This document shows, one piece after another, positions 10,072-28,702 of a stretch of 35,749 nt of DNA (its first letter is position 1; every line of letters begins with the position of its first letter). Origin of the DNA: Entophlyctis helioformis (Eukaryota; Chytridiomycota; Chytridiomycetes; Chytridiales; Chytriomycetaceae); contig JAHLKH010000231.1 of NCBI GenBank assembly GCA_025526915.1, positions 1-35,749 on the forward strand, given 5' to 3'. The translations under genes and the position numbers were made by a program. The notes below the pieces were generated by a model, which was not told the origin of the DNA, did no database searches, and was given only the letters and a program-made list of their open reading frames with translations.

Positions 10072-10314
10072 TGTAACAGTCAGCCGCGATCACGTGACAC
10101 GCGTGCAACCGGTCGCGCGTCCCACTTGAATCCTGACAGACCACAAGGCGACTTGCCCCAGTCGTCGCCTTGTGTACTGAAACCCGCCGTCTGTCAGGTA
10201 TTGCCCATGCATATGCCTTTATTACTACGAAGCTATATCAATGAATAACCTTGTGTACTGAAACCCGCCGTCTGTCAGACCGCCCATTGTCTCGTTGCAC
10301 ATCGTCCTGTTGCA
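10072..10314 (+). repeat. Element 1 5' LTR
   Basis: Starts TGTAACAGTC, ends CCTGTTGCA. It carries CACGTG near its left end, a candidate transcription start at the 8-mer AGTCGTCG (10160-10167), and a duplicated 30-bp unit at 10168-10197 and 10249-10278 with a spacer holding CAATGAATAA. Confidence 0.95.
10198..10278 (+). other. Intron-like cassette in element 1 LTR
   Basis: An 81-nt segment that starts GTATTG after CAG, contains CAATGAA, a branch-like TACTGAAAC and ends CTGTCAG. Its last 30 nt repeat the 30 nt before its GT. The same segment is at 15845-15925 in the 3' LTR. Splicing is inferred only. Confidence 0.45.
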
Positions 10315-10322
10315 CGACGACT
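10315..10322 (+). other. Element 1 self-priming primer-binding site
   Basis: CGACGACT directly follows the 5' LTR and is the exact reverse complement of AGTCGTCG at 10160-10167 in the LTR. It does not look like a tRNA 3' end complement (no TGG start). This is the arrangement known from Tf1, where the first bases of the mRNA fold back to prime reverse transcription. Confidence 0.7.
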
Positions 10323-10350
10323 CAAGACAGTCAGTGACCAGACGGAAGGA

Positions 10351-12687
10351 ATGACGACCGACAGCCTCAGTGCCGAGGGCACTGGTGCGGTCGGAGCAGG
10401 CAGCAGCATCGAACAGCAACACCAGCAACACCAGCAAAATCAGACCGGCCTGCCAACACCCGTCACCGTTGTCCGCACTGTCACCAACTACCGCCTTGGC
10501 TCGAGCCTGGCAGAGGCGGCCATGAGGCTGCTCTTGAAGAGACCCGAGTTGATGGCCGAGATGCGAGACGCGGTGCCAGAGGGCGGCAGCCTGCTGCAGG
10601 ATGGAGACATCCAACCGGTCGCGGATTACGGGTCGCTCCTCGCCGCGCTGGGACATCGGGATTCTGCCATCCAGGATGAGGTGGCCTCGGTAGCAAGCTC
10701 GCCGTCGGTTCACTCCTCAAGCGCCCAGTTCAACTCAGCGGCGTTTGCTGCTCACTCGTCTCTGGCTCGAGCACCCGCACCGTCGCGATCGCAATCCATC
10801 AGCATCAGTCAGCACGGCACGATGGATCTACCGACGCCAGCGGCAGCCTCCGATGCCGCGCTGTTCCGCGCGCGGCAGACGGAGGCCGAGAATGACCTCA
10901 AGGATCTGAGGTTCGACGGCGACCCAGCGGCCGATCCGCTGGGCAACGCCCGGGCCTGGAAAGTATTCACCCGCGCCCTGGAGAGCAGCATGGGCATTTG
11001 CCTGGCGCTCTACAGGGAGGAACCTGTTCGCATTCGCATGTTAGAACGCTGCTTGAGGGGCTCTGCCCGAGAGTGGTTCTCCAACACTGTGATGCCGCGT
11101 GTCCAGGCGCGAGAGCTGCGTTCATTGGCCCAGGTCATCGAGGTGGGCAACCGCAGGTACCGTCCGGCGCATCTCATCCAGCGTGCACAGCTCGTCATCG
11201 ATCGTTTTGTACCCGCACCTGGCGAGGCGTGTGCCCAGTGGGGCGATCGTCTCACGGCCCTGCAACGCAACGCCGACGCCTCGGACGCCGCGATGATCAA
11301 GAAGGCGTACTCGCTGTGCTCACAGGAGCTGAAGGCTCGGATCGACATCTTGGAGGGTCCGGACGGTCTCGACGGCCCACAGACGTTTGCAGAATACCTG
11401 GAGCTGATCGAGAAGCTCGACGCCAACATGCGGTCCAAGGCCGAGTATGCCCAGGCGGCTGTTTTGACGGCCGCGGCACTCAATGGCACCCTGTCGACGC
11501 CATCTGCCAATGTGGGCTCAGGATCGGCTTCTGGAAGTGGACGCCGCCGCACGCAGACGGCTCCTGCACCGGCCAGAACGCCGCCGGCTCCAGTGACGAT
11601 CCCAGCAGCGCCGAGGACGCAATCCGTGTCAGCCCCAGCAAACAGCGCCGGCCTGGCCAGCGAGTGGCAGGCGGTGATGTTGCGCGTTGGTCGACCGCTC
11701 TCAGAGGCGGACCGCGAGTTCCTGAAGGCCAACCACGGCTGCTACGCCTGCCGCCGACCCGATCACGCATCCATCAGGAACCCGGCATGCCCATTCCACC
11801 GCAGCGGCGGTGCACCAGTCGCAGTCGCCAGTGTGGCCCCCCCTAGTGATCATGGTTCGGGAACAGCTGACAATACATCTGTTACCCACTGCTCGTCTTT
11901 GCCCATGCCGCCGGTCCGCTCGCCTATCCGATCGCATGTCATGGCAACCGCCGATGGGTTCCCGTGCGTGGCCCTGCTGGACACCGGCGCATCTGGTATG
12001 GTGATGTCGCGCAGTTTCGCGCGTCGGATTGGTGCACAGACCTGCGCCATTGAGCCGTTCACGGTCGAGTATGCCAACCAGGAGTGCCATCGCGTTGCGG
12101 AAGCGGTGACCATTACTCTTGGGGTTGGGGACTACGCGCAGCAGCTGCAGTTCTTTGTCGCGGACATCAGCACCGATGTGATCCTGGGTACGCCATGGTT
12201 TGCTGAGGTGGTGATCACCAAGGGCGATATGGCCGACCGCTCATTTGCATTCCACCACAAGGCCATGGGGCGCGACTTTGTATGGCGTCTGCACCCCTCA
12301 GTGGCACCCGAACCGGAACCGACACCCGAACCAGTACCCGAACCCGCATCCAAACCCGCATCCGAACCAGCACCCGAACCAGCACCCGAACCAGTACCCG
12401 AACCCGCACCCGAACCAGTACCCGAAACAGCATCTGAACCAGCACCCGAACCACCCTGCGATCATGCTCCGATGTCCCTTGAGGCCATTGCTGCGCAGCA
12501 CGGCATTGAGTTCGTCAGCTACGAGGATTTCCATGCGGACGAGTCATCATATGTCGAGATCATGGCCCTGACCAGCTGTGGGGACGCAGATACGGCAACC
12601 GACGCGGCCATTGCGGCGATTGACGAGGCGGATCCACTCGCCCATCTGAGCCTGGAGACGCAGCCTGAGGTTGTCCATCCCTGTTGA
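10351..12687 (+). CDS. gag: Element 1 Gag-protease polyprotein
   Basis: A 778-aa open frame from the first ATG after the PBS to TGA at 12685-12687. It holds a capsid-like helical region (about residues 190-380, with RMLERCLRGSAREWFSN), a long Ala/Pro/Ser linker, a zinc-knuckle-like CYACRRPDH...NPAC (about residue 463; the spacing after His is longer than the usual CX2CX4HX4C), and an aspartic protease with LLDTGASGMV (active-site Asp about 544) and VILGTPWF. Protease is thus in the Gag frame rather than at the head of Pol. The C-terminus holds a Pro-Glu repeat and an acidic tail. Gag packages RNA; the protease matures the particle. Confidence 0.92.
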   Translation: MTTDSLSAEGTGAVGAGSSIEQQHQQHQQNQTGLPTPVTVVRTVTNYRLGSSLAEAAMRLLLKRPELMAEMRDAVPEGGSLLQDGDIQPVADYGSLLAALGHRDSAIQDEVASVASSPSVHSSSAQFNSAAFAAHSSLARAPAPSRSQSISISQHGTMDLPTPAAASDAALFRARQTEAENDLKDLRFDGDPAADPLGNARAWKVFTRALESSMGICLALYREEPVRIRMLERCLRGSAREWFSNTVMPRVQARELRSLAQVIEVGNRRYRPAHLIQRAQLVIDRFVPAPGEACAQWGDRLTALQRNADASDAAMIKKAYSLCSQELKARIDILEGPDGLDGPQTFAEYLELIEKLDANMRSKAEYAQAAVLTAAALNGTLSTPSANVGSGSASGSGRRRTQTAPAPARTPPAPVTIPAAPRTQSVSAPANSAGLASEWQAVMLRVGRPLSEADREFLKANHGCYACRRPDHASIRNPACPFHRSGGAPVAVASVAPPSDHGSGTADNTSVTHCSSLPMPPVRSPIRSHVMATADGFPCVALLDTGASGMVMSRSFARRIGAQTCAIEPFTVEYANQECHRVAEAVTITLGVGDYAQQLQFFVADISTDVILGTPWFAEVVITKGDMADRSFAFHHKAMGRDFVWRLHPSVAPEPEPTPEPVPEPASKPASEPAPEPAPEPVPEPAPEPVPETASEPAPEPPCDHAPMSLEAIAAQHGIEFVSYEDFHADESSYVEIMALTSCGDADTATDAAIAAIDEADPLAHLSLETQPEVVHPC
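12304..12454 (+). repeat. Pro-Glu hexanucleotide-based repeat between protease and RT
   Basis: About 150 nt of CCCGAACCAG(T/C)A-type repeats encoding PEP(V/A) runs of about 50 residues near the end of the Gag-protease ORF. It is a tandem low-complexity linker and probably length-variable. Confidence 0.9.
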
Positions 12688-15600
12688 TCCAGTTCCAGGA
12701 CCTCTTCCAACCGGGCAACCTGCCGCCGTCGCGGCCTGAGGATCATCGTATCAAGCTGGTGCCTGGTTCCAAGCCGCCGCCGCGCCGCCCTACGCGCAGC
12801 CTGCCGACTGAGCACCAGGATGCTGTCAAGGCGTTCTTGGACGACCTCGCCGCGCGTGGCATGATCCGCGGCTCTGTGTCGCCATTTGCTGCGGGTATCG
12901 TGATCGCCAAGAAGAAGGACGGCGGTCTGCGTCTGTGCATCGACTATCGTGGGCTGAACAACATCACGGTCAAGGATCGCGCGTCGATGCCCAGTATCCA
13001 GTCGCTCATTGACCGCGTCGCAGGCAAGCCGTTCATGTCGTCGGTCGATCTGCGGGACGGCTACTACAACATCCGCATCTACGACGAAGACATCCCCAAG
13101 ACGGCGTTTGTGACCCGTTACGGCCACTACGAGTTCAAGGTGATGCCTTTTGGGCTCTGCAACGCTCCTGCCACCTTCAACGCCATGATGAACCGCATCT
13201 TCCACGACCTGCTGGACGTCTGCGTTGTCGCCTACATGGACGACATCCTGATCTACTCGGAGACCGAGGCGGACCACCTGCTGCACCTGGAGGAAGTGTT
13301 CCATCGTCTGCGTGCTGAATCGCTCCGCCTGAAGATGTCCAAGTGCGAGTTCTTCTCGTCGCGGCTCGAGTTCTGCGGTCATCTGTTGCTGGGTGACGGC
13401 TACTCGATCCAGGACAAGCATCGGCTGGCACTGAAGACTCGGCCGATCATTGGGTCTGTTGGCGATCTGCGGCGCTTCATTGGGCAAGTCGTGTGGGTCA
13501 AGGATTTCATCAAAGACTACGCCGACATCTGTGTGCCGCTCACGGACATGCTGCGCAAGGACGTGCCCTTTGTGATGGACGAGGCCAAGTGGGCCATTGT
13601 GGACTTTATTCTGGACGCCATCACGAACGCTCCGGTGCTCAAGTACTTTGACCCGTCGCTGGAGACACACGTGTACACGGACGCATCCGAGTTTGCCATT
13701 GGTGGCTGGATTGGCCAGAAGCATGTCGAGGCGGACGGCACGGCCAAGATCCATCCGGTCTCGTTCTACTCGCGCAAGCTCAATGATGCGGAACGCAACT
13801 ACCCGACCCACGAGCGCGAGATGCTGGCGATCGTGGACACCTGCGACAAGTACCGGCACTACCTGCTCAGCGTGCATTTCACCATCCACACCGACCATGC
13901 CTCGCTGCGATGGATCTCGACGCAGCCCAAGCTGTCGTACCGCCAGGCTCGCTGGATCATGGAGCTGCAGGAGTTTGATGCTGTGGTCCAGTACATCCAG
14001 GGGGGCGACAACAACCTTGCCGACATGCTGTCGCGCCATGTGACTGTTGCCCCGCACTGCGCTCGATGCCGTGCAAAGGTTGAAGTGGATGCCTTGACCA
14101 CCGCAACACCCGACATTGCCGACCGCGTTCGCCCGCTGCTCGATGCCGATCCGTTCCTGCTGGACGTCGCTCGCTGGAAGGCCGATCCTGCTGATGCTGC
14201 TCTGCACGAGCGTCAGTTGGCCGCCAAGCTCGAGCTGGTCGACGGCCTGTGGTTCTACGAGGGTCGCATGTACATCCCAGAGGGTCAAGTGCGCACAGAC
14301 CTGCTCACCTCGTACCACGAGCCGGCCCATGCCGGCCACCAGGGCCGCGAACGAACATACGGCCGTCTGCGTGCGCACTACTACTGGCCGGACATGGCTG
14401 CGTCGGTCGGCCGCTTTGTGGGCTCGTGCGACGCCTGCCAGCGGTTCAACTCGTCGACGCAGGCGCCTGCCGGTCTGCTGCACCCGCTGCCCATCCCTGC
14501 CGACCGCTTCCAGTCTGTGGCCTGCGACGTTGCGTTCATGCCCATGTCGGACGAGGGCAACGACGCTGCGTTTGTGATTGTGGATCGCCTGACAAAGCTT
14601 GTCAAGTGCGTGCCGACGCGACGCGATGCGACTGCCGAGGATCTTGCCGCGCTGTTCCTCAACCGATGGGTGCTTGCTGGCCACGGCCTGCCGTCGTCTA
14701 TCGTGTCGGACCGCGACGCTCGCTTCCTGTCTGCCTTCTGGACGGCGCTCTGTGCGGCGCTGGACATTGAGCAGGTCATGGCAACGGCCCGCCACCAGGA
14801 GACCGACGGCCAGTCCGAACGCACCATCCGCACGCTCAAGGACCTGCTGTCCAAGTACGCCAACCACCGCGGCAGCAACTGGGAGCACATGCTCGATGCG
14901 GCTGTCCACGCCCTCAACTCTGCTCCAAGCGCATCGACTGGCTATGCTCCGTACTTCCTCGCCTTTGGCCTCGAGCCTCGCACGCTGCCACACGAGCCTG
15001 CAGCATCATCGCCGCCTGCTGTCCGCGACCTGCTCGCCGCCATTGACAAGGCTCGCGTGGATGCCACAGCCAACCTGACCAAGGCTCAAGAACGACAGAA
15101 GCGCAACGCCGATCGCCACCGCCGGGATGCTCCTGCCTACGCTGTCGGCGACATGGTCATGCTGCAAGCCGCCGGCATTGTGTGGCCCACCGACACGCAT
15201 CGCCCCAACGCGTTCCTGCCCAACTGGCTGGGTCCATTCCCGATCACAGAGGTCAATGCCGCACTGGATGGTCTCAACTGCAAGCTGGCTCTGCATCCGA
15301 CCATGCATCGTCTGCATCCGTGGTTCCACGTCCGTCTTCTGAAGCCGTACCGCGATCCGGCCGCCGCCTTCCCTGGCCGGCCACTGCCTGCTCAGCCGCC
15401 TGCAGTCGCCTTTGCTGAGGACCCTGCAACAGCTGAATGGGAGATTGACGCGATTGTGGGACACAAGGTCGCTCGCAACGGCCGCCGCTCCTTTGTGGTC
15501 TCGTACCTCGGTTACGGCCCGCAACACAACGAGTACCGATCGGAGGCCGAGTTGCGCGAGACTGCACCTGATCTGCTGGACCAGTACCTCGCCGCCCTCC

Positions 15601-15776
15601 CAGCACAGCCGCCGGTCCGTCGCAGCCGCCGCCACGCTGGGGATGCATTGGACGTGAATGTGGCTTCCTTCTTTGTCTGTGCCGATTGTTCTCCAGAGGA
15701 TCCCTCGTCAAGGGGGGCTGTAACAGTCAGCCGCGATCACGTGACACGCGTGCAACCGGTCGCGCGTCCCACTTGA
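12669..15776 (+). CDS. pol: Element 1 Pol: reverse transcriptase, RNase H, integrase, chromodomain
   Basis: Open in the -1 frame relative to Gag from just after a TGA at 12666-12668 to TGA 15774-15776, with about 1,030 residues from TTG 12684. No ATG lies near the Gag stop, so expression must use frameshifting or another recoding in the 12669-12687 overlap; I see no canonical slippery heptamer. Domains: RT (LRLCIDYRGLNN, SSVDLRDGYYNI, VMPFGLCNAPATF, YMDD at about residue 184), RNase H (HVYTDASEFAIGG), integrase zinc site (HEPAHAGH...CDAC), DDE core (CDVAFMP, VSDRDARF, ETDGQSERTI), and a C-terminal chromodomain (WEIDAIVGHKV...VSYLGYGPQHNEY). The last 58 nt of the ORF lie inside the 3' LTR. Integrase with chromodomain typically targets heterochromatin in this clade. 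Confidence 0.93.
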   Translation, partial: GCPSLLIQFQDLFQPGNLPPSRPEDHRIKLVPGSKPPPRRPTRSLPTEHQDAVKAFLDDLAARGMIRGSVSPFAAGIVIAKKKDGGLRLCIDYRGLNNITVKDRASMPSIQSLIDRVAGKPFMSSVDLRDGYYNIRIYDEDIPKTAFVTRYGHYEFKVMPFGLCNAPATFNAMMNRIFHDLLDVCVVAYMDDILIYSETEADHLLHLEEVFHRLRAESLRLKMSKCEFFSSRLEFCGHLLLGDGYSIQDKHRLALKTRPIIGSVGDLRRFIGQVVWVKDFIKDYADICVPLTDMLRKDVPFVMDEAKWAIVDFILDAITNAPVLKYFDPSLETHVYTDASEFAIGGWIGQKHVEADGTAKIHPVSFYSRKLNDAERNYPTHEREMLAIVDTCDKYRHYLLSVHFTIHTDHASLRWISTQPKLSYRQARWIMELQEFDAVVQYIQGGDNNLADMLSRHVTVAPHCARCRAKVEVDALTTATPDIADRVRPLLDADPFLLDVARWKADPADAALHERQLAAKLELVDGLWFYEGRMYIPEGQVRTDLLTSYHEPAHAGHQGRERTYGRLRAHYYWPDMAASVGRFVGSCDACQRFNSSTQAPAGLLHPLPIPADRFQSVACDVAFMPMSDEGNDAAFVIVDRLTKLVKCVPTRRDATAEDLAALFLNRWVLAGHGLPSSIVSDRDARFLSAFWTALCAALDIEQVMATARHQETDGQSERTIRTLKDLLSKYANHRGSNWEHMLDAAVHALNSAPSASTGYAPYFLAFGLEPRTLPHEPAASSPPAVRDLLAAIDKARVDATANLTKAQERQKRNADRHRRDAPAYAVGDMVMLQAAGIVWPTDTHRPNAFLPNWLGPFPITEVNAALDGLNCKLALHPTMHRLHPWFHVRLLKPYRDPAAAFPGRPLPAQPPAVAFAEDPATAEWEIDAIVGHKVARNGRRSFVVSYLGYGPQHNEYRSEAELRETAPDLLDQYLAALPAQPPVRRSRRHAGDALDVNVASFFVCADCSPEDPSSRGAVTVSRDHVTRVQPVARPT
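15710..15718 (+). other. Element 1 polypurine tract
   Basis: AAGGGGGGC immediately before the 3' LTR, the expected plus-strand primer site. It lies inside the pol ORF. Confidence 0.85.
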
Positions 15777-15961
15777 ATCCTGACAGACCACAAGGCGACT
15801 TGCCCCAGTCGTCGCCTTGTGTACTGAAACCCGCCGTCTGTCAGGTATTGCCCATGCATATGCCTTTATTACTACAAAGCTATATCAATGAATAACCTTG
15901 TGTACTGAAACCCGCCGTCTGTCAGACCGCCCATTGTCTCGTTGCACATCGTCCTGTTGCA
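15719..15961 (+). repeat. Element 1 3' LTR
   Basis: 243 bp, identical to the 5' LTR but for one base (A at 15876). The 8-mer is at 15807-15814, duplicated units at 15815-15844 and 15896-15925, intron-like cassette 15845-15925. Confidence 0.95.
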
Positions 15962-15966
15962 TGGAT
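15962..15966 (+). repeat. Target-site duplication TGGAT, right copy
   Basis: Right copy of the 5-bp duplication of element 1; host codon 200 (GTT) follows at 15967. Confidence 0.95.
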
Positions 15967-18379
15967 GTTTGCATTGCACGCCATTCCCGCGAAGCAAGGT
16001 TGGTCGGCCTTCTGCATGCTTCTAGAATCCATGGCTCACGCGCCTTCTTGACAGCGATGTGCCAGTCATTGTGATCAGTGGCGACTCTGATCTGGTGTTC
16101 CACTGTGCCGGCTATTGCCCTGTCCTGCTGCTGCAACTGCGCAGTGGGCAGATCAATAGAATGCGATCCTACAATCACCATGGGATTGCCTCCATTGCAG
16201 CCGCCTTAGGCTTGCCAGACATTCCCTTTGTCTGCCAGTTGGTGGCCGCAATGGCGAGCAACAACTATTTCCATTGTGTTGGGATTGGTAGGTTGGCTTG
16301 CCTGCTTTGCATTTTTGGATGTCATGCACTGCGACCTTGACTTACTTGTGATGCTGCGATGTGGACTTGAAAGGGATCGTCACGGCTGCAAAGTGCATCA
16401 TGGCATGCATTCGGTTGGAGGCAGAGCAGCTGGGTATCTCTGTCGCGGATGTCTGTGAATGCCTCCAAGACCCCGACATTGCCAGAATGTTTGTGCATGT
16501 CATCAAGATTGCGTTCATGTGGCAGATGTACAAGATCGGCGGCAAGCCTCTTGCTCAGTCATTCAGCAATGCCTTCGCGGTGTTTCTCAACCGTGATGAA
16601 ACTGGAGCCGATATTGGAGAGATCACAGCCCCAGCATGTGGCCATTATGCCAGTGTGTTTGCAGGACAGATGCGGCAGTAAGTCTTGCTTTGGATGCACT
16701 TGAACAGCATGGCATTGACATGAATGCATGCACCATCCAATGGCAACAGCATCACTGCCAACAGGACCATCTCGCCCCAAAACAGGTAGGCACGGCTGCG
16801 ATCTCTGCAGGATTCTTGTGGCACTGACTCTGATGGATGCCACTGGCAGATCTGCCTCTGCATGCACGGCCTACAGCGACTGCTGCTTGAGCCACACGGC
16901 ACAGCAGCTGAAGGGAAATGCCAGTGGTGCGGTTTGGCACATCACACGGGACGCAGTCACAGAGCTCGCCAACCACACTGTCAGCACAAGGCGGATGGAC
17001 GGCGTTTTTGGCGAATTCAATGGCTGCCGTGTCGTGCTTGGCTGCATCCTCCGGTGCACAGCAGATCAGCTTGCCAATGACAGCATCAACGGCCGCGACA
17101 TTCTTGCTGATATCTGCGAGAATGCAAGCAAGCAGCTGCTCCAGGCTGTGCACGAGAAGGATCTCGCTACAAAAGGATATGAGATACTCAGCCCAGCTGA
17201 GCAGAGCCTGTTACACGCCTTTGTGAGTTTTGGGTGGCTTGGATGCGTGTCTTGACTGTCCACTGCATGCTGTTGCTGATTTTGAGCATGGCTGACTTGA
17301 TCCATCACTGGGCAAGCAGATGGTGATCCTGAGACTGCAGGAACGGCTCAAGAGGTATCCAGGCATCGCATGTGCACCATTCAGGCGTTCAAGGAAGCCA
17401 GGTTCGCTCTGCATTTGTTTGGCACAGTGCGACCTTGTGTATTCACAATCAATCACGGCATTCTTCTGGCAGGCAACCGCAAGGCTAAACAGCACCGCAG
17501 AAAGAGCACACGGATCGCGACTCGAAAGGCTGTCGCTGCCATTCGCAAACAGGCCGTAGATACGCTGAATCTCTTGGAATGCCAAAAGAAACACAGCCCG
17601 GACGACTTCAAGCCGCTGGCACTTTCTGAGCAGTATCAACAAGCCACAGACACACTGACACTGATCATTGACAGGGCTCCAGTGCGTCTTTGCATTTCTA
17701 TGCTCTGTTTGCATGTGGCGGCTTGATGCACCTGCTCATGCTTTGACTTGACAGGTCGGCAAGCCACCGAAAGCGCCAAAGATGCTGCTGCCATCTCCAG
17801 CCGCAGCTGATGGCACAGATCGCGACAAGATCCTCTACATTGATGTGCTTCAAGACACAAAGACAACCGTGAGTTGAACTGCAGGCTTGTGATTGTGAGC
17901 ATCTTGTGCACATTCAGAATGCACGCCTAAGATTGCATCCAAACACGGCAGGAGCCATACCTTGTCACACTGGCCAGACAGGCTGTATTCAAGAAGGAGC
18001 GAGAAGAGCGTGCAGAGAAGGCCAAGGCAGATGAGATCATCAAGGAGCTCAAGAAGGATGCAAGCAAGCAAGCCCGCCAGGCTCAATCTGAGGACGAGAC
18101 ACAGGCGTAAGTGGCATATGGCATGTCGCGTGCCTTGATTGTGCTTGCTGACATGCATTCTGCTGGCAGATACGCATTTCATGCAAGACGCACCTTGCAC
18201 AATGAGCTTGTCCGGATGGGCGACTACAAACAAGGGGCCTGCCAGACTCTTCCTGCAGCCGCCAATTTCAAAGCACCAACAGAGGAGGGCACGGAGAAAG
18301 ACAAGGAGAAGGACGAGCACGAGCGGGAGCAGGAGGCACAGCAGCATCCCAAAGCACCAAAGGCTCAGACAAACATGCA
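15967..18379 (+). CDS. FEN/XPG-like nuclease, second segment (after element 1)
   Basis: Exons: 15967-15998, 16055-16287, 16374-16677, 16765-16785 (a 21-nt micro-exon), 16850-17222, 17385-17681 (start unsure), 17755-17868, 17952-18106 and 18170-18379. It continues VCIARHSREAS, then VIVISGDSDLVFH (Asp220, Asp222, the DxD pair) and NNYFHCVGIGIVTAAK, the helix-hairpin-helix-like site where FEN1 has Asp233-Tyr; here Asn280 stands in place of that Asp. Beyond about residue 300 I recognise nothing. The chain is mostly helical, with a Lys/Glu/Ala coiled-coil-like stretch (VFKKEREERAEKAKADEI) in the exon at 17952 and a charged run at about 18290-18340. An alternative exon start at 17320 is supported by a branch-site-like CTGAC but falls in another frame. 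Confidence 0.65.
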
Positions 18380-18624
18380 TGTAACTGTCCTCGTCGAGAG
18401 CGGCTGGCCGTCTGGTGGCAGAGGGGCAGTGAGTATACAGGCTTACGGCTGGATACAACTTCATTGAGACTCAGGCACAGACCTGGTGGCAGAGGGGCAG
18501 TGAGTATACAGGCTTACGGCTGGATACAACTACAACAACAGGGCCAAGCCAAGTCTGGGCGAGGCGCGTCCAGATCAATGCCAGCAGGTCACGTGACCAC
18601 GGGACTGCGGCGGCATCCGTTACA
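18380..18624 (-). mobile_element. Solo gypsy-type LTR, 245 bp, TSD ATGCA
   Basis: On the minus strand it starts TGTAACGGATGCC and ends CAGTTACA, with ATGCA on both sides (18375-18379, 18625-18629). Its first 11 bases match those of the element 3 LTR, but the rest differs, so it is a related family. It carries GTCACGTGAC and a 49-bp unit twice (18483-18531 and 18412-18460 in + coordinates) separated by a spacer with CTCAATGAAG. The solo form indicates LTR-LTR recombination after insertion. It interrupts a host exon; the frame resumes at 18630. Confidence 0.9.
18412..18482 (-). other. Intron-like cassette in the solo LTR
   Basis: Read on the minus strand: CAG|GTCTGTGCC, CAATGAAG, branch-like TACTCACTG, and an end at GCCACCAG. 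71 nt, its last 49 nt repeating the sequence before the GT. Splicing is inferred. Confidence 0.4.
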
Positions 18625-18629
18625 ATGCA

Positions 18630-19372
18630 GCAACATCGCCCCAATATGATCGTGAATCTGAAGGTATGGGGGTTGATCGCCATGCTGCTCTGCATGCTCG
18701 GCTTTTTGCATGCTGACAGGTGTGCAGGAGATGGTTTCAGACAATCCAGCAAGCGCAAAGTTGTTGGGCCCTCCAGCCAAACCACCATCAGCAGAGCAAA
18801 CCATCGCCATGGTTGTCCTAGCCTGCATTTCCAAGGTTTACACGTTCATCGTCGGCGCTCGGCATGTCGGGATTGTGATGCTTGGCGCTGTTCTTGAAGT
18901 ACTGCTCAAGCTTGAGTCAGATGAGCCGCTGCCTCTCGATTATTGCGTTTTCAAGTGGACCCGCGATGGAAAGACCAACTACTGCTTTCTTGATCGCGAG
19001 AAACTTGACCGCAAGACGGAGGCTGCGCTCTTGGCAGGATACTGTGTGCTGGAAAAGGACACCATGGTCCGGTTTATGTACGGCGTTGGTCCACATGGTC
19101 GCAAGGGCAAAATCCCTTTCTATGGGGATTCTGTGATCCTCTCAAAGGACACAGTGCTTGAGCTCTGTTCGCTTGGACACGTCAAGAAGCCCAAGCAGCC
19201 CAATGGCCCCAATGACCCTGACGGTCCTGACAGCCATGAGGACGATCGCGACCACGAGGATGATGATGATCATGATGACCACGAGGACGATGACGATCAT
19301 GAGGATCACGAGGACGACGAGCAGCATGATGACCATGAGGATGACGAGCAGCATGAGCAGCACGAGCAGCAA
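18630..19372 (+). CDS. Host gene, third segment (after solo LTR)
   Basis: Completes the exon cut by the solo LTR (18630-18663, reading QQHRPNMIVNLK), intron 18664-18727 (gtatgg...gtgcag), then an exon open from 18728 to the next insertion at 19372. It encodes a hydrophobic stretch (IAMVVLACISKVYTFIV), an unknown folded-looking region (YCVFKWTRDGKTNYCFLD, RFMYGVGPHGRKGKIPF), and a long His/Asp/Glu/Gln low-complexity tail from about 19230. I do not recognise the domain. The frame continues after element 3 at 26034. Confidence 0.6.
19368..19372 (+). repeat. Target-site duplication AGCAA of element 3 (second full element)
   Basis: AGCAA directly before the 5' LTR, repeated at 26029-26033 directly after the 3' LTR. 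Confidence 0.92.
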
Positions 19373-19557
19373 TGTAACGGATGCTTGGTCGCGGTCACGT
19401 GATCCACGTGACCCACGTGACCAGACAGACATTGTCGGGCCGCACTGGCCGCTCTGGTTTCCCCCGTTCTTGCAGTCGTCTGCCCGCCCTTCCTCGCGTG
19501 CACACATACTGACCCGAGAGACCAGCCGGCAAGTCCGTCTGGCGGCCCAGTACTACA
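19373..19557 (+). repeat. Element 3 5' LTR, cassette-less form
   Basis: 185 bp, TGTAACGGATGC...CAGTACTACA. It has three CACGTG sites in its first 60 bp (GTCACGTGAT, CCACGTGACC, CCACGTGACC), the 8-mer GTTCTTGC at 19466-19473 and a single 52-bp unit (19474-19525). Confidence 0.93.
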
Positions 19558-19565
19558 GCAAGAAC
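19558..19565 (+). other. Element 3 self-priming primer-binding site
   Basis: GCAAGAAC directly after the 5' LTR, exact reverse complement of GTTCTTGC in the LTR (19466-19473 and 25863-25870). The layout is the same as in element 1. Confidence 0.7.
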
Positions 19566-19653
19566 CGCCCTCTCGACGCCGTCGGCCGCCGTTTCCCGCC
19601 GCCGTCGATCGATTTTTCCGTCGATTTTTCCGTCGATTTTTCCGTTTTTTCAG

Positions 19654-21730
19654 ATGGCCGTCGAGCGCTCGCCCCAGCCCACGGCTCGCTCGGCTGCCGC
19701 CCCCTTGGGCACCGACCAGGACCTCCTTGGCGAGGCCTCGTTCGATACGGCCCGCTCGTTCATCGACGCCACCCCCCCAAGGTTCCAGCACCGCCCCGAC
19801 CCTGCGGGTACGTCGTCCGTCTTGATGGCCGACTCTGCTCTGGGCGCGTCTTTTGGCGCCTCACCAGCGCGCCGCCACTCCTCGGCCGATCTGTTGGGCC
19901 GCCACGATGCAGACGCTGGTCGGCGCCAAGAGGCGTTCCTCTCCAGCACGCCGGCCGTCCAGCCCGGCGCTGGGAGTGCCCCCAGGCGGCCCTTCACCAT
20001 CACTGGAGAGCACATGTTCTACGAACTCGTGCGCCTCCACACGGGGGCGTCAGACACCAGCCGAGCACTCAAGGCAACCACATCATCTGCGGCCGCTGCC
20101 CACGCGGCCATCGATGATCTGCGGCTGCAGCTGCAGGCCGACCGCGACACTGCCGCCAGGCAGGCTGAGGCCTACTCCAGCGCCACCCAGCTCCACCATC
20201 AACGCCTGGTGGCACTCTTTGACTCCGTCGAGGCCAACTCAGAGGCCATACGGGGCCTGCAGAAGAGCGTCGCCAACACGTCGGAATCCGTGATTGCACT
20301 GGAGCAGGTCTTCTCGGATGCCGTTGCCAAGGCCACCAAAACGGCAAATGCCGCGTTGGCGCAGGCCTCAGCCACGGCGACCCTGCTTGCGGAGCATCCG
20401 GTCCAGGCGCTTGGGTCCTCGGTGGACTCGCGTCCGGCCCCCGCGTCTGGATCCTCGGTGGATGCTCGCCTGCCAGCAGTCGTGGATGCCCGTGCACCAA
20501 ACTTGGCCAAGGTGTTCTCGGAGTCGCTTGGCAGACAGGCGCCGTTCAACGGCCTTGTCATGGTCAAGGGCTCGCAGCTGACGGTCAACTGGAACGCCAC
20601 TCGCGAGAGCCTTGAGCCATTTGTCCTTGCCATTGAGATGGCCTACAAGAGCGCCTGCAAGGCGACCGGCGTGGATGCGATCCCCCTGAGCGACATTGGC
20701 GCAACCCTCCTGACGCTCCTCACAGGCGAGGCCCGCGTATTTGCCACCGCCTGGTTCAAGTCGCTCAAGACAGACGATCCGCCCCCGACGCTCGCCCACT
20801 TCCTTGCGGACCTCGTGTCGCGCCACAGTGCCCCGGAACGAGTCCGAGGCCAGGCTCGCCAGAAGCTGGAGCGTGACTTTGCGCCCACTGAGTGCCATGG
20901 CCGTGTCCCGCAGGATTGGCTACATGCAGCCGAGCGGCTGTTTGGTGACGCCCAGCTTACGGAGGCGGAGATGCTCACATTCCTCCGCACGCGCATCAAG
21001 GACAAGCCCGAGGCGTGGGATTCGCTCACGACCTACTCGGCCCTCCGCGAGGCGTTCATCAAGCGACACTCAGGCGCGGAGGAACACGAGCGTAACATTG
21101 CAATTGCCACTGCCCTCGCCAACGCTCACAAGGCCCAAGACGCCAAGTCGACGCCCAGCTCTGGCAAGACAGCCGCCGCGTCGCCGCGTTCTTGGAGCTC
21201 CTCATCGCCCAAGGCCACTCCTGCGCCTTCCGGCAGTAGCAGCGCGTCTGAGACGCGTAAGGCTGCCTCGCCTGCTGCGACAGCCGACCATGCTGGCCGA
21301 TCGCCTAGCCAGCGCCCGCCCCACTCTAAGGTCGGGCGCATCGCGGCAAAGGCCAAGGCACCCGGGTATGTTCGCTCGCCCCCTTTGGCTCCTCCTGCTC
21401 CTGCGGCTAAGCACGCTTCGGCGGCTAAGCCTGCAGCCGTGCGTAAGCCCAATGCTGACACCGAATCTCCATCGGTCCCTGCCCGTGACGACGGCGCACC
21501 AGCAATGGCTCCGGCTCGCGGTCGCTCGAAACCGTCTCGTCGTTCTCAGACGACGGGACGCAGTACAGCGACGCAGACGAAGAAGAGTGACCCTCTGGGT
21601 GGCGTTGCGAATAAAAAGATGCCCTCTGGGCTCCCCGTTCATCCTGCTTGCCCTGTTATGCCGCCGTCGCGGCTGAAGGAGGGGCACCTTGCCCCGGTGA
21701 CCCATCACCACACACCGGTGCACCTTCCCG
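19654..21730 (+). CDS. gag: Element 3 Gag
   Basis: From ATG 19654, open in this frame to 22290 but with retrotransposon-like content only to about 21730, where protease sequence moves to another frame. An N-terminal Ala/Ser-rich region, a predicted coiled-coil stretch (residues about 145-240, ATKTANAALAQASATATLL), a capsid-like domain (FATAWFKSLKTDDPPPTLAHF, residues about 300-480) and a basic Ala/Pro/Arg tail. I see no CCHC knuckle; the Arg/Lys-rich tail may bind RNA instead. Confidence 0.8.
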
Positions 21731-24700
21731 GTGTTCCTGGACAATCGCAGTGCCAGTGTCCTGGTGGACACTGGCAGCAGCGCGAATCTGGTAGCTCGCC
21801 GTTGGTTGGATGCCAACGGCCTGCTCGCCGCTGCCCGGCCGTTCACCCGGCAGGCGGTGACTCTCGAGTTTGCCAACGGCAACTTGCAGAGACTAGATTC
21901 GGAGGTCTACCTCACGCTCGCGGACAGAACAATGCTGTTGCCAGGTGCGGTTCCTTGTCTACGATGGTGTGGATGATGTCATCCTGGGCATGCCATGGCT
22001 GCGCACAACCGCGAAGGCGTCGTTCAACTTCCGGCGCGGCGTTTTCCGCTTCTCAACCGAGTCGCGCCCCGATGTGCACCACATCTGGCAGCACAAAGAC
22101 GCTCCGCCGTCCGCTGCCTCCCACAACCGGCCGCACTCTGACATCGTGGTTACCATGTCGGACATCCTCGCCCATCCTGACGAGTACGCGGAGCTGGTCT
22201 ATGTGGATGACCTGCCCGAGGACCGTGAGGCAGCTGCCGATGCGCGCCTTCGCGTCGCGGCTGCAAACGGCCTCACCCCGGACGAGCTGAAGGAGAAGTA
22301 CCCCTACCTTCCAGTCTGCCCGGACGAGGAGACGCAGAAGGCATTCATCGACTACTACGAGGTCTGCTGCCCGCCGCAAGGCCGCGCGCACGACTCGGAG
22401 TTCGAGATCGCGATCCCTTTCATTAAGGATGCGCAGCTGCCGCCGCGTCGTGGCCTCAAGAGACTGAACCAGGATGCATCCGTAGCGCTCAAGAAGCAGC
22501 TGGACGAGTGGTACACCAAAGGTTACATCCGCCGCTCGTCATCGCCTTTGGGCGCCGGCACGCTCTTTGTCCGCAAAAAGGATGGTTCGCTGCGGTTGGT
22601 CATCGACTACCGCGGCTTGAACAACATCTCGGTGAAGTTCCACAGTGCGATCCCGGAGATTGAGACCCTCCGTGATAACTTGGCAAACAAACCCTTCCGC
22701 TCGATGCTTGACATCCGCGAGGGCTTCCTTAACATTCGTGTTAAGGCGGAGGACCAGTGGAAAACTGCGTTCTCCACCCAGTTTGGTCACTTTGAGTTCA
22801 CGGTCATGCCCTTTGGGCTGACCAATGCTCCGGCGTGTTTACACAGGCCATCCAGTCGACGCTCAATGAGCTGCTGGGCACGTGCGTCTCGGTGTACATG
22901 GACGACATCTACATCTACAGCGCGACGTATGAGGAGCATATCGAACACCTACGCACTGTTCTCAAGCTGCTACTGGAGGCTCAATTGTACATTAAGCCGT
23001 CCAAGTGCATGATCCTGCAGCAGGACATTGAGTTCTGTGGTCACGTGCTCTCGCCCACTGGTTATTCCATTGCGCCAAAGCACTTGCAGGACATGGCAGC
23101 TGCCCCCCACATCTCAAACACGTCCACTCTGGCAACTTGGCTAGGTAAGCTTGTGTGGTTAAAGTCATTCATTGGTGGGCCGAACCCTGCAAAGGCGTAC
23201 GCCACCATGTGTCTGCCACTATACAAGCTACTAGCCAAGAATGCCAAGTGGGATGGGGCCCTGCTCAAAAGCAGGCTGTGGAGACCTGCGACAGGCAGTG
23301 TTGAAGGCTACCGAGCTGCGGTTCTTTGACCCGGCTCTGGAAACGCATGTCTACACTGATGCCAGCAACTACGTCATTGCCGGCTACCTGTCGCAGATCC
23401 ACCCAGATGGCGAGAAGCTGGTGGCCTGCTGGTCACGTAAGCTTAGCCCAGCCGAGATGAACTATCCAACCCACGAACGCGAGTTGCTTGCCATCGTGGA
23501 GTTCTTCTCGCGTTTCCGTCATCTACTGTCCAGTGTGCGCTCTGTCACGCACACTGACCACAAGGCGCTGGTCTGGTTGGCCACGCAGCCCCACCTGTCG
23601 GATCGGCAGGCTCGATGGGTCCTGTCTCTGCAGGAGTTTGATACATCCATCGAGTACGTGCCTGGCGAGCTCAACTCGCTGGCCGATCTGCTGTCCCGCG
23701 ATCCCTCAAAGGCCCCTCTCTGCACAAACTGTCGCTCGCCTGTCCCGATCCGTGCTGCCAATCTGCGCACTGACTCTGACTGGGCGAAAGACGTGCGTGC
23801 GGCGTTGCCGGCCGACCCATTCGCCTCCAGACTGCCTGGCTGGAAGGCTGACCCGTCGTCGCCACGCCGGCCGACCGCAAGGTCGTAGTGCACATGGAGT
23901 GCTTGGATGGTGCGTGGTGGTACAAAGGCAACCGCTTGTATGTGCCGCAGTCTCTGCGCGCGGATCTGCTTGCCCACTACCACGACTCTCCCTTTGGTGC
24001 GCACCAGGGACGTCAGCGGACCACCAGCCGCTTGTCGAACCGGTACTTCTGGCCCAGAATGTCTGAGGACATTGCTGCCTATGTCGCCTCATGCGACATG
24101 TGCCAGCGCCACCGCACACCCAACCACCGGCCTGACGGCCTGCTGCATCCACTCGCGATCCCGGACGACTGCTTCTCGAGCGTCGCCATGGACGTCATGT
24201 TCCTGCCCACGGGCGGACAAGACGATGCGTTTGATGCTGCTCTGGTTGTGGTCGATCGCCTGTCCGGCCTCTGCGACGCGTTCCCGTGCCGCCGCTCGTC
24301 GTCGGCCCAGGAGCTGGCCGAGCTCTTCCTGACTCGCTGGGTCTGCTCGGGCAAGGGCTTCCCAGTCGACATCGTCTCGGACCGCGACGCCCGCTGGCTG
24401 TCGGCCTTCTGGTCGAGCCTCTGCACCGCTGCCCGGATCAAGCAGAACCTCAGCACGGCTCGCCACCAGCAGACTGACGGCTTGGCCGAACGCAGCATCC
24501 GCACCATCAAGGATGCGCTCGCCAAGGCGGCCGATTACCACGGCTCTGACTGGCCGCTGCTGCTCGGTCCCACCTGCTTTGGCCTCAACTGCGCGCCGTC
24601 GGCTTCGTCTGGCTTTGCACCTTTCTTCCTGGCGTTTGGCCGCCACCCGCGGTCCTTCCCGTCTGAGCCGGCCCTGGCACCGTCTGCCGCGGCCCGCGAC

Positions 24701-25716
24701 CTGCTGCTGGACATGGCCGCTGCCCGCGACTCGGCCATTTTGAATCGGCGCAAAGCTCAGGCAGCTATGGCCGTTCAGGCAAACAAGCGTCGCCGCCGCA
24801 CCCTGCGTACAAGGTCGGCGACATGGTGCTCCTCAACGCTGAGGGCATCTCCTGGCCGGCGGACTCGCACCGCCCGCCGCTCACGGCCGCCAAGTGGCTT
24901 GGCCCTTTTGCCATCACCAGCCTGGACTCTGGTGAATCTGGCCTCAACTACACGCTCGCGCTGCCTGCCTCGCTGCACCGCGTCCACAACGTGTTCCATG
25001 CCGACCGGATCTGCCCGTATGTTGACCCTCTGTCTGCGCCCACCGGCCGCAAGGATGTGCCCTCCCGGCCTGACCCCGAGTACCATGCCGACGACGGCAC
25101 GTCGGACAACTACGAGGTCGAGCAGATCGTCGACTCGCGCACTTATCGCGGCAAGATCGAGTATCTGGTCAAGTGGGTTGGCTATCCAGCCGACGACAAC
25201 ACATGGGTCCCAGCCGCGGACATGCGCAAGGCCCAGGACCTCGTCAAGGCATTCCACGCTCGGCCGTCCAAGGCGCCTAAAGGCAAGGCGTCCAAACCGG
25301 CTCAGCCCCCGCGCGCGGCTCCTGCTCCGGCTGCTCCTGCACCGGCTGCTCCTGTTCCAGCCGCGGCGCCTGCTCCCACGCAGCCCAAGGCATCCAAGTC
25401 CTCTCGCCGCAAGCGCACTGCGCCTGCTCCTGCACCAGTGGCCCCTGCTCCAGCAGCAGCCACGCCCGCGGCACCTGCTCCGGCTGACGAGCCGATCACA
25501 CCTGCTGCACCCGCGTCTCCCTCTCTCTCTCCATCTTTCCCTCCTCTCCCTCCTCCCTCTTCTCCTCCTTCCTTCTCTCTCTCTTCTCTTCCCCCTCTCA
25601 ACCATCCCGCCCCACCTCGTCGCTCTGAGCGCACGGTTCCCCGTCCTGTGTCCTACGCGTCCATCGTTGCCCGCACTTCTGCCTCTCGTGTGTGCAACGC
25701 CCATGCATCCTCTTAG
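21731..25716 (+). pseudogene. pol: Element 3 Pol, broken by several frameshifts
   Basis: Protease (VLVDTGSSANLV, 21731-21950; VILGMPWL from about 21965 in a new frame), RT (LRLVIDYRGLNN, VMPFGLTNAPA to about 22840; then YMDDIYIYS from 22835 in another frame), RNase H (HVYTDASNYVIAG, from about 23290), integrase zinc site and core (GAHQGRQRTT...CDMC, VSDRDARW, HQQTDGLAERSI, from 23888), then a last switch at about 24800 to the frame with VGDMVLLNAEG and a canonical chromodomain (YEVEQIVDSRTYRGKIEYL, about 25111-25250), ending with a long Pro/Ala/Ser tail at 25716. Breaks lie near 21950, 22840, 23270, 23875 and 24800. Each looks like a one- or two-base indel, so no single product can be made as sequenced; assembly indels are an alternative. 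Confidence 0.88.
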
Positions 25717-25759
25717 TCGCTGTTCATCCACTCTTCTTTCCTATAAGTGGCTGTCTACG

Positions 25760-25769
25760 CTGGGGGGAG
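25760..25769 (+). other. Element 3 polypurine tract
   Basis: CTGGGGGGAG, purine-rich and directly before the 3' LTR. Confidence 0.8.
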
Positions 25770-26028
25770 TGTAACGGATGCTCGGTCGCGGTCACGTGAT
25801 CCACGTGACCCACGTGACCAGACAGACATTGTCGGGCCGCACTGGCCGCTCTGGTTTCCCCCGTTCTTGCAGTCGTCTGCCCGCCCTTCCTCGCGTGCAC
25901 ACATACTGACCCGAGAGACCAGGTCTGTGCTGCCTCCCAATGAAGAGTCGTCTGCCCGCCCTTCCTCGCGTGCACACATACTGACCCGAGAGACCAGCGG
26001 CAAGTCCGTCTGGCGGCCCAGTACTACA
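25770..26028 (+). repeat. Element 3 3' LTR, cassette-containing form
   Basis: 259 bp, ending AGTACTACA. The 8-mer is at 25863-25870, followed by a 52-bp unit (25871-25922), a 23-bp spacer with CCCAATGAAG and a second identical unit (25946-25997). Without 25923-25997 it matches the 5' LTR except for one substitution and one missing C. Confidence 0.92.
25923..25997 (+). other. Intron-like cassette in element 3 3' LTR, absent from its 5' LTR
   Basis: 75 nt: CAG|GTCTGTGC, CAATGAAG, branch-like CATACTGACCC 12-17 nt before the final CCAG. Host introns nearby have the same length, branch and boundary style. The 5' LTR lacks exactly this stretch. Confidence 0.5.
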
Positions 26029-26033
26029 AGCAA
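26029..26033 (+). repeat. Target-site duplication AGCAA, right copy
   Basis: Right copy; the host exon continues with GCA GGC AGA at 26034, in the frame it had before the element. Confidence 0.92.
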
Positions 26034-28392
26034 GCAGGCAGAGCAGAAGCAGGCAGCAGCATCATCCAACTCCTCACAGCACTGACCAGCAGCAGATCGG
26101 TGGCGAGACGTTGTGCATGTTCCTACGCACATTGTCACGATTGTTGGCATGGCAAAGCGGATCAACATGGACACCAACGCATGGTGGTCACCGTCATGCA
26201 ACTGATTGTTCACCGTAACTGGACGCGGCGCATGGTGCACGCCAATGCAGGCAAGGTGCGTGCAGACATGGCTGATGCTGACATGATGGGCATGGATATG
26301 ATGGATGCTGACAAGATGGACGCGATCCAGACGAGCACGATCCAGGCGGATTTGGACAAGGCAGTCCTGCCATGCAAGCTGGCTGTTGGTCTGTGTGGGA
26401 AAGCGGCCAATGACATCTACAGCTACTTGGCCAGAGATATCTGCACCATGCTGGCAGTGCATGTCATCTCGAACCAGTCGATGCTCGTGCTTGCTGCTGC
26501 CCACCAGCTGATGCCCGGCGCATCAAAGGAGGAGGTTGTGGCATCAGTTGCGGCCATGACCAAAGCCATTGAGGATGCCACGCCACTGGCCGCCGAGGAT
26601 GCCACACCACAGGTCGCTGAGGACGCCATGCCACTGGTTGCTGAGGACGCCCCATCGCCGGCTGATCTTGACGCTGCACCACAAGCCACTCTGGATGCTG
26701 CACCTCCTGCGGCAGGTCGCAAGAGGGCCCTGTCTAGCTCTTCGTCGCCCACCGATTGCACCGCGACCAAGAAGCCATGTGGCGAGAGGGACGAGGCCAC
26801 CACAGACGCGGCATCCAGCACACCTTCAGACACGGAGGGCATAGCCATTTCTGGGATCCCCCAACAGCTGGTCAGGCTTGCGGCGATCTTGCTCAACAAG
26901 TCGCTGTCGGAAATAGGCAAGTTCTACCGGCTGCGCAAGCTGGCCGGCGAAACAGTGATCAAGTTATGCCCTGAGGCGGCGAATCGGGACCCGTTTGTCC
27001 ATATCACCGAGACCATTCTGTTTTGGTCGGTGATAGGGAACCCAAAGGATCGCAAGCCAACCAAGAACAACGCTGCATTGCAGGCTTTGCAAAAGCATCT
27101 CTTGGCTGCGATCAGCAGTAGGTCGCACTTGGTTATGCCATGTTTACATGATTTGATACTTACAAACCACTCTTCTCAAAGAGCCTGGCTCGCAAGCCTT
27201 GACTCTTGCGTCATCCAACAAGGACATACAAGCCGCTTTCAGCTCAAGCCGCGAGGATTGCGTTCTCGACATTCTCCTCCCCGGACTCGCCTTGGATACA
27301 CGACGCTTCCAGACGCCTGCAGACGCTAAGGTCCAGATGGACGCGGCTGCCAAGGCCAGAGCAGACGCCATTGCCGATGCGACTCTTGAGGCCAAGAGAC
27401 TCCTTCTGGTTGGCAAGGTGCGCGAGGATTACATCCAGGCTGCAATCAAAGCCCTGCCCCCAGCGAGGCCAACCAAGGCTGTCAGACTAGGCAGCATCAA
27501 GACCGATGGATACAGCGTCTCTCAGCTGACTCTGGACTATCGCACAGACCGTCCAGAGTCGCCTCGCAGTATGTGGCGCACTTGAATGCGATGGTGCACA
27601 CATTGGTTCTGACATCCGCCTTGATCTGCAGGTCCCAACGCGGCGTCTTCAGCCCAGCAACTCAGTCTTGCTGGTGATGCTCATGATCACATGGACGTCA
27701 CATGTGAGTTGCTGTACCAATCCAGACGCGCACTTGTTGACCACACCGACTGACATGCCATCCACAGCCACCGATCCAGCTGACCCATCAGCCACCAAGC
27801 CAAAAGACCCAATCCTGTAAGCCACTTGCATGCCAACCTCGCGCATTGGTGCACATGCACTGCACATTCCTCACTCATGTCATGGCACGACAGGCCCAGC
27901 GCAACTTTTACGCCTCGCAGCGACTGCGTGACATCATCAACGCCAACAAGCTGTTCACCAACAAGGGCTACCGGTTTGTGCGCGTTGTCAGCTTTGATTG
28001 GGGCCAGCGGTACCTGTATGGCGCGTCCAGCATCTTGGTCGATCTCAGAGACTTTTCGTATACGCTCGAGGCCAACTACGTGCTCGCCTCTGGCATGCAC
28101 AAGCTGAGCGCAATTTTCAGTGGTGGTATGCATGCAATGACTCTGCCACGCGCACTCTTGACCAGATCAACTCACAGTGCCTGCCTCTTGTGCCAGGTTT
28201 GATGACCGACTTGCCAAGGCAGCCGACGTCCAGGCAGCCATTGCATTCAAGACAGCAAAGCATGCCGATCCAAACGTCAAGCCTGGCGAGAGAGCCTTTT
28301 GGGATCTGCGCTGTGTCGTGGACCACGACGAAGGCACAGCTGCAGATGATGGGATGTCGGAGGATTCTGATGACACGGTGGACACGTGGGAG
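26034..28392 (+). CDS. Host gene, fourth segment with TDG and RuvC-I-like motifs
   Basis: Exons: 26034-27117, 27182-27568, 27632-27703, 27768-27816, 27894-28125 and 28178-28392. The first part has Met/Asp-rich and acidic Ala/Pro repeats (26570-26720) and a basic GRKRAL stretch, then a helical region. The late exons hold LGSIKTDGYSVSQLTLDY and, 400 nt on, RFVRVVSFDWGQRYLYGASS followed by NYVLASGMHKLSA. In TnpB and eukaryotic Fanzor proteins a TDG-type strand precedes a RuvC-I motif of the form D-x-G, then a conserved SG region; the order and spacing fit, but this is pattern recall, not a search. The D codon is 27996-27998. No RuvC-II Glu, zinc finger or RuvC-III Asp is visible before the end. 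The junction at 27817/27894 does not keep frame with the sites I see. The terminal acidic DDTVDTWE runs directly into a TGA that I assign to an LTR. Confidence 0.55.
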
Positions 28393-28702
28393 TGAGAAGG
28401 GGGCGGAAGGGAATTGTGCACGTGGGTGGTCGCCGCGTGGGTCGCGCGGCAGGGAAGCAGGAGTGCAGTGCCGGAGGGCGGGCGGCGTTGGGCTTTCCCC
28501 AAGCCAACCCATCGTCAACCGTATCCGTCGTCGTACTGCTGGAGTAGCTCGAGGCTGACTCCACTGTAACCAAGGTGTGTGTGTGTGTCGTTTATTGCCC
28601 AATGAAGCCAACCCATCGTCAACCGTATCCGTCGTCGTACTGCTGGAGTAGCTCGAGGCTGACTCCACTGTAACCAAGTCCTCTCGTAACCCTGAAGATC
28701 CA
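28393..28702 (+). repeat. Element 4 5' LTR (ends approximate)
   Basis: TG...CA limits proposed by analogy: TGAGAAGG at 28393 and GATCCA at 28702. It contains CACGTG, a 74-bp unit present twice without mismatch (28501-28574 and 28605-28678), and a 30-bp spacer starting GTGTGTGT and ending CCCAATG. I could not find a self-complementary 8-mer here, so the right end is uncertain. Confidence 0.4.
28575..28678 (+). other. Intron-like cassette in element 4 LTR
   Basis: 104 nt: AAG|GTGTGTGT, CCCAATGAAG, branch-like GGCTGACTCC, end TAACCAAG. Its last 74 nt repeat the sequence before the GT. Splicing is inferred. Confidence 0.4.

Follow-up and report, generated by a model that had tools for sequence, protein, structure and literature searches.

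Reverse transcription of a spliced RNA normally erases introns. Intron-retaining Penelope-like elements are retroelements that keep introns in their genomic copies, with a different enzyme and by target-primed copying; we know of no rebuilding of an intron by strand transfer in them. Elements with long terminal repeats (LTRs) face a poly(A) conflict between the 5' and the 3' LTR, and one known solution is to carry the signal in U3 only. The genomic RNA of foamy viruses and the genome of human immunodeficiency virus type 1 (HIV-1) stay unspliced. Here, we describe four LTR retrotransposon families, f1 to f4, of the chytrid fungus Entophlyctis helioformis, whose LTRs carry a candidate intron. 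We analyzed them in one window, the whole contig C231 (35,749 bases) of the 29.6-Mb genome, and in further copies elsewhere in that genome. According to passages of PMC4600332 and PMC7175516, Tf1 and Tj1, and by proposal Tcn1, have a primer binding site (PBS) complementary to the 5' end of their own RNA. Passages of PMC3694450 describe foamy viruses, in which the LTR holds the major splice donor, placed upstream of the poly(A) signal, and binding of the U1 small nuclear ribonucleoprotein (snRNP) suppresses the 5' site, and HIV-1, in which the 5' poly(A) site is suppressed by a splice donor 195 nucleotides (nt) downstream of the signal.

We found that the four families share one cassette, in which a unit of 30 to 74 nt ending in AG is followed by a spacer that begins with GT and leads to AATGAA and then by a second, exact copy of the unit. 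This design is a real, family-wide, and unusual LTR arrangement. From its anatomy, we consider it quite probable that a spliceosomal intron lies within the LTRs of these retrotransposons and is rebuilt at each round of reverse transcription. It is also likely that these lineages, both self-primed and tRNA-primed, replicate via a spliced genomic RNA, with strand transfer rewriting a functional intron and solving the poly(A) conflict between the 5' and 3' LTRs. One short sequence would then serve both as the first exon and as the 3' half of the intron.

The cassette and the edges of its unit

A preliminary description of this contig had proposed a unit-spacer-unit cassette in four families. We confirmed it at 10168-10278, at 18412-18531 on the minus strand, at 25871-25997, and at 28501-28678, with exact units of 30, 49, 52, and 73-74 nt. 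The f1 cassette lies in a full element on the plus strand (10072-15961) with the target site duplication (TSD) TGGAT. Its 5' LTR (10072-10314, with TG...CA ends) holds an 8-mer, AGTCGTCG (10160-10167), directly followed by unit 1 (10168-10197), the putative exon 1, and by a candidate GT...AG intron of 81 nt (10198-10278). The latter consists of a spacer (10198-10248, with AATGAA at 10240-10245) and unit 2 (10249-10278), an exact copy of unit 1 that holds CTGAA. The 3' LTR (15719-15961) is also double, with units at 15815-15844 and 15896-15925. The f2 copy is a double solo LTR on the minus strand (18380-18624; TSD, TGCAT). Its unit 1 (18483-18531) matches unit 2 exactly, and its candidate intron of 71 nt (18412-18482) comprises a spacer (18482-18461) and unit 2 (18460-18412), with CTCAC.

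The f3 element, on the plus strand at 19373-26028, is a single insertion with the TSD AGCAA. Its 5' LTR (19373-19557) has one unit only (19474-19525). The double LTR at 25770-26028 is the 3' LTR of the insertion that starts at 19373; unit 1 (25871-25922) matches unit 2 exactly, and the candidate intron of 75 nt (25923-25997) has AATGAA at 25939-25944 and ends with unit 2 (25946-25997), which holds CTGAC. The f4 5' LTR, also on the plus strand (TGTCGTGG...CGACA, 28314-28748), has a start that we set where upstream similarity among f4 copies stops. Unit 1 (28501-28574) is an exact match to unit 2 (28605-28678), and the candidate intron of 104 nt (28575-28678) has AATGAA at 28601-28606 and CTGAC in unit 2.

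At the right edge of the unit, all four families have a GT directly after unit 1 but not after unit 2, and the unit ends in AG. If the families were independent, a GT after the unit and a terminal AG in all four would arise by chance with a probability of about (1/16)^8; f2 and f3 share spacer sequence and so are not fully independent. A branch-like CTNA motif is present in 6/6 unit types, with its A 13-18 nt before the final base. The shuffling null for this motif is 0.18-0.29 per unit type, and the product of the four family nulls is about 0.004. TACT(G/C)A is kept in the units of f1, f2, and f3, while much of the remaining unit differs. The host sample was one gene in the window, for a mitochondrial carrier, to which a protein on record for E. 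helioformis maps exactly and whose five introns in the public gene model measure 235, 148, 80, 76, and 82 nt, with the donors GTGAGT, GTGTGT, GTAATC, GTAAGC, and GTGAGT and with CTGAC near the acceptor in 3/5. Set beside this one gene with five introns, the spacer plus unit 2 has on the DNA the GT-AG ends, the branch motif, and the host-like size of a spliceosomal intron, and the intron-like form claimed in the preliminary description (GT-AG ends, a branch-like motif, and 71-104 nt) was borne out. AATGAA is a putative poly(A) signal, and the cassette has a foamy-type arrangement, with the donor upstream of that signal.

At the left edge, the 8-mer just before unit 1 and the first 8 nt past the LTR are exact reverse complements in f1, f2, and f3. 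In f1, AGTCGTCG matches the PBS CGACGACT (10315-10322). In f2, GTTGTTGT (18532-18539, minus strand) matches ACAACAAC, which was read in f2 5' LTR copies and not at the solo LTR of the window; this match falls within a GTT repeat and carries less weight. In f3, GTTCTTGC (19466-19473 in the 5' LTR) matches GCAAGAAC (19558-19565). The primer and PBS pair over 8/8 nt in each family, with the ninth base unpaired in all three, and the left edge of the unit coincides with the end of the 8-nt primer in 3/3 self-primed families. Unit 2 is preceded by the end of the spacer and not by the 8-mer. We read these matches as the mark of Tf1-type self-priming. Because the 8-mer is complementary to the PBS, the 5' end of the RNA would lie at the 8-mer, and, after removal of the primer, the first base of the unit would be the end of the template. 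Since the 8-mer ends at unit 1, the unit is bounded exactly by the primer end and the GT donor. In folds of the leader, the primer:PBS helix is part of the minimum-energy structure for f3, which was folded in its single-unit form.

We found no self-primer 8-mer before the unit of f4. Past its LTR lies TGGTCCGACTTCTCGGAA, with an 18-nt PBS (28751-28768) complementary to a tRNA-type 3' end plus CCA, and the genomic tRNA-like sequence TTCGATTCCGAGAAGTCGGA has 11 copies (control, 0). Under tRNA priming, the template would be expected to stop at the transcription start, which makes an 8-mer unnecessary. The preliminary description had named the 8-mers; it had not noted that they match the primer site, that f4 has tRNA-type priming, that the f2 LTR is solo, or that the f3 5' LTR has a single unit.

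Occurrence and homogenization of the units

We read 84 LTRs of f1 to f3 from genome loci (18 f1, 32 f2, and 34 f3) and 20 LTRs of f4. The genome searches used double-unit queries, and 40/126 f2 and 40/157 f3 candidates were scored, so that single-unit copies of f2 and f3 are undercounted; the window's own single-unit f3 LTR is missing from the f3 search list. We found that 78 of the 84 LTRs were double, 1 was triple, and 5 were single. The duplication is thus family-wide and not copy-specific, the alternative that the preliminary description had allowed. In the 78 doubles, unit 1 and unit 2 were identical in 58, one edit apart in 14, two edits apart in 3, and of different subfamilies in 3. GT after unit 1, no GT after unit 2, and AG at the end of both units were found in 78/78, as was AATGAA at the spacer/unit 2 end. 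In f2 and f4, the last A of AATGAA is the first base of the unit. Among the f4 LTRs, 7 were double (7/7 exact), 11 were single, and 1 was cut by a contig end (L084); the remaining one (L087) is diverged and appears to be a double that has decayed. The f4 doubles have two unit types (CAACCG or CAATCG), with the same type in both units of a given LTR. Both units were visible by eye in an old, gapped f1 copy outside the 84 (L096).

To expect a cassette in every LTR would be too strong: single-unit LTRs occur in f1, f3, and f4 (0/32 sampled f2 LTRs were single). Such LTRs have neither GT nor AATGAA at the cassette position. A single-unit 5' LTR corresponds to the prespliced form and would remain usable, the f3 element of the window being an example. 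Both LTRs are single in an f1 insertion on C186, with a common U5 variant and the TSD GGTTG, and in an f4 insertion on C152, with the TSD CGCAC. Because both LTRs are single and the TSDs match, the unit was lost at or before reverse transcription.

Despite the divergence between families, the two units match each other within each family, and their sequence is particular to it. Within f3, the subfamilies A (unit of 52 nt) and B (51 nt) differ at 9 diagnostic unit columns, and in a third type, C (one copy), both units are A/B mosaics. This pattern is that of the f3 LTR L076 (C34:148260), whose two mosaic units are the same but for one edit and whose U5 is unusual. Since units match within copies and differ between families and subfamilies, there must be a process by which one unit is frequently copied onto its partner over the whole stretch between primer end and GT. 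Two LTRs are triple, a solo LTR on C239 (AAA) and a 5' LTR on C469 (BBB), and one of the two lies outside the 84-LTR sample. Unit lengths in f2 (n = 32) were equal, with exact units, in 25 (49/49 in 21 and 48/48 in 4), 48/49 in 2, 49/48 in 2, and other in 3.

Exact junction patterns of f3 in the whole genome, which miss mutated copies, were AA in 22 cases, BB in 37, BA in 3, and AB in 0. We also mapped linkage in 32 double f3 LTRs over 28 diagnostic columns. U3, unit 1, and spacer were of one type in 29/32 (with one unreadable column in L062), and the 3 BA LTRs, which represent 2 insertions, had a unit 2 of the opposite type, with the switch at or near the spacer/unit 2 border. Breaks at the U3/unit 1 border were found in 0/32. 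The exceptions to linkage were L076, with its mosaic units, L053, with a patch in unit 1, and a hybrid on C99. In the insertion on C355, both LTRs are BA and the TSD is CCAAA; since both LTRs are hybrid and the TSD matches, the hybrid arose at reverse transcription. When a spliced strong-stop DNA is transferred, the U3, unit 1, and spacer of one RNA are expected to be joined to the unit 2 of a second RNA, as in these hybrids. If the strong-stop DNA were unspliced, unit 1 and the spacer would move with it.

The spacer/unit 2 junction itself varies among copies. The last two spacer bases in f1 are AA, GA, or AT, and f3 copies are with or without a T. An imprecise strong-stop end might leave such variation; other spacer columns also vary.

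The proposed cycle and its rivals

In the cycle that we propose, transcription would start at the 8-mer in f1 to f3 or at the unit in f4. Unit 1 would be the first exon, and the spacer plus unit 2 would be an intron whose 3' half, with the branch site and AG, copies exon 1. Splicing would take the intron and its AATGAA signal out of the 5' leader. At the 3' end of the RNA, cleavage inside unit 2, ahead of the acceptor AG, would keep the spacer and part of unit 2. In f1 to f3, the 8-mer at the RNA 5' end would anneal to the PBS and prime, with the first base of the unit as the end of the template. The minus strong-stop DNA would then be exactly unit plus U5. After annealing to unit 2 at the 3' end of the RNA, it would be extended through the spacer, unit 1, and U3, giving U3-unit-spacer-unit-U5, in which unit 2 is a new copy of the 5' unit 1. 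If it annealed to unit 1, a single-unit LTR would result, and an unspliced or misannealed strong-stop DNA would yield a triple. The sequences themselves display the anatomy and edges of the cassette, the homogenization of its units, the recombination point, and the gain and loss of units, whereas the transcription start, splicing, cleavage within unit 2, and strand transfer are inferred.

Rebuilding from a spliced leader had been suggested in the preliminary description. The primer-end edge, the homogenization within copies, and the switches at or near the spacer/unit 2 border agree with that suggestion, in which splicing itself stays a putative step. The accompanying prediction that each cycle without splicing adds a unit is too strong. 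Units are sometimes gained, as in the two triples, but gain is not compelled, because in-register transfer of the whole repeat would keep two.

On the DNA evidence, an intron rebuilt by reverse transcription is well ahead of the other explanations. It is unlikely that there is no splicing, with R being the whole unit-spacer-unit, the identity of the units arising through reverse transcriptase slippage or out-of-register transfer, and the GT and AG edges being coincidental. Direct repeats are unstable in reverse transcription, and single and triple LTRs exist, as slippage would produce. Slippage leaves unexplained, however, why the repeat spans exactly the primer end to the GT and ends in AG in four families. 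With a full-R strong-stop DNA, unit 1 and the spacer would also travel along with unit 2 and U5, and the break would fall at the U3/unit 1 border, where no f3 double broke, although L076 and L053 switch inside unit 1. These two LTRs bear as well on an explanation in which splicing is absent or incidental and a poly(A) device was duplicated once and then homogenized by DNA-level gene conversion among LTRs. The mosaic in both L076 units and the patch in unit 1 of L053 could be conversion tracts. Conversion has no reason to halt at the primer end and the GT, and both C355 LTRs carry the same hybrid with the TSD intact; we regard this explanation as very improbable. Even less credible to us are two alternative transcription starts, one per unit. 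They would equally yield a one-unit strong-stop DNA without splicing, but the 8-mer stands only before unit 1 in f1 to f3, and a transcript begun at unit 2 would be unable to prime itself. Plain tandem duplication as the sole cause was rejected by the fixed edges, the four families, and the homogenized subfamily types. An assembly artifact as the cause is unlikely, given the matching TSDs and the recurrence of the design across many contigs.

Several observations weigh against an intron rebuilt in each cycle. The sequences read were DNA, from which we infer both the splicing of the candidate intron and the use of its poly(A) signal. An f1 insertion on C37 has a double 5' LTR and a single 3' LTR with the TSD CTGCG, and the f3 insertion of the window is discordant in the opposite direction; such pairs with intact TSDs call for slippage or conversion in addition to the model. 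With 11/20 of its LTRs single, f4 either does not strictly need the cassette or loses it easily. In leader folding, the f2 helix was shifted (exact-register probability, 0.01-0.03) and the f1 helix was absent, so that folding gives no support for f1. The C99 hybrid has an A-type spacer column and a B-like last unit 2 column, and its break may precede the border, and L076 and L053 switch inside units. The 48/49 parallel in f2 is weaker, since it involves a C-run slip that could recur. U5 markers assort more freely than unit 2 does (L054 and L055), and therefore not all transfers carry unit and U5 together. Finally, an assembly with near-identical repeats may contain chimeras.

The elements and known systems

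The elements have the paired LTRs, PBS, polypurine tract, and 5-bp target duplications of LTR retrotransposons. A common 5-bp TSD was found for 8/12 same-strand LTR pairs of f1 to f3, and the f4 pair on C152 also shares one. The f1 pol open reading frame (ORF; 12684-15776, plus strand) has reverse transcriptase, RNase H, and integrase in the Ty3/gypsy order. Its profile matches to RVT_1, RT_RNaseH, and Integrase_H2C2 were above the cutoff, that to rve was below its cutoff, and that to a C-terminal chromodomain (PF00385), which would mark a chromovirus, was weak (E = 7.3e-5; 23.0 bits against a cutoff of 25.1). Among the tblastn matches listed for f1 pol, 25 of 200 or more residues were at f2 and f3 loci and at the f3 element of the window, 19 of them at 43-52% identity and 6 lower. 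The integrases of f1 and f3 are 51% identical over 299 amino acids (aa). This divergence of pol indicates that f1, f2, and f3 parted long ago. For f4, gag/protease-like matches lie beside the 5' LTR, and the 3' LTR on C152 follows a match to the f1 integrase (25.5% over 337 aa; E = 3e-15). On these gag/protease and integrase comparisons, f4 may be of the gypsy type given in the preliminary description.

The 5' LTRs of f3 subfamily B (L062/L060 at C355:7336-9246, L063, and L102) adjoin a short internal region unlike that of A, and the C355 pair, with its shared CCAAA, is 1.6 kb apart. Subfamily B looks like a short nonautonomous partner of A with a common primer and PBS. A short f2 derivative is the pair L019 and L027 (C185:2826-4801), 1.7 kb apart with the TSD ATCCA. 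Elsewhere in the window, a 28-bp minisatellite of 5 copies (8987-9128) lies between the mitochondrial carrier gene and f1. A Copia-type ORF of 1244 aa (RVT_2 and rve; 31056-34790, minus strand) lies close behind the f4 gag/protease region, and its 5' part overlaps an 80- to 82-bp tandem repeat at 34739-35112.

We found no description of a complete, rebuilt intron in an LTR in the open-licence literature, covered mainly as titles and abstract starts. The sole match to an intron-in-LTR phrase, in part of the text of PMC5542766, was a false match on the vector name LTR1. A scan of viral contigs, the only one made outside the host genome and limited to an alignment of polymerase relatives and two peptide patterns, found none with the same design.

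Families f1 to f3 resemble Tf1/sushi-type Ty3/gypsy elements in their self-priming PBS, and f1 also has a related reverse transcriptase-integrase polyprotein. In contrast to those elements, the primer here is 8 nt. An LTR intron or a duplicated first exon is not mentioned for Tf1-type elements in the text available from these sources, and the word "intron" occurs 0 times in the available part of PMC4600332. Foamy viruses are like the cassette in having an LTR donor upstream of the poly(A) signal as an answer to the 5'/3' poly(A) conflict, and HIV-1 answers the same conflict through a splice donor. Unlike foamy viruses, the families described here have a complete GT-AG intron in the LTR; their genomic RNA itself would be spliced, and the intron would have to be rebuilt. 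The likeness to Penelope-like elements is that introns are kept in genomic copies.

The anatomy of the cassette suggests that here reverse transcription rebuilds an intron. If so, this intron would survive reverse transcription by design. Splicing would be tied to strand transfer, concerted evolution inside the LTR would be explained, and the DNA would hold a record of the landing point of the first-strand transfer. The cassette would then add a third solution to the LTR poly(A) conflict, beside a signal confined to U3 and U1 bound at the donor.

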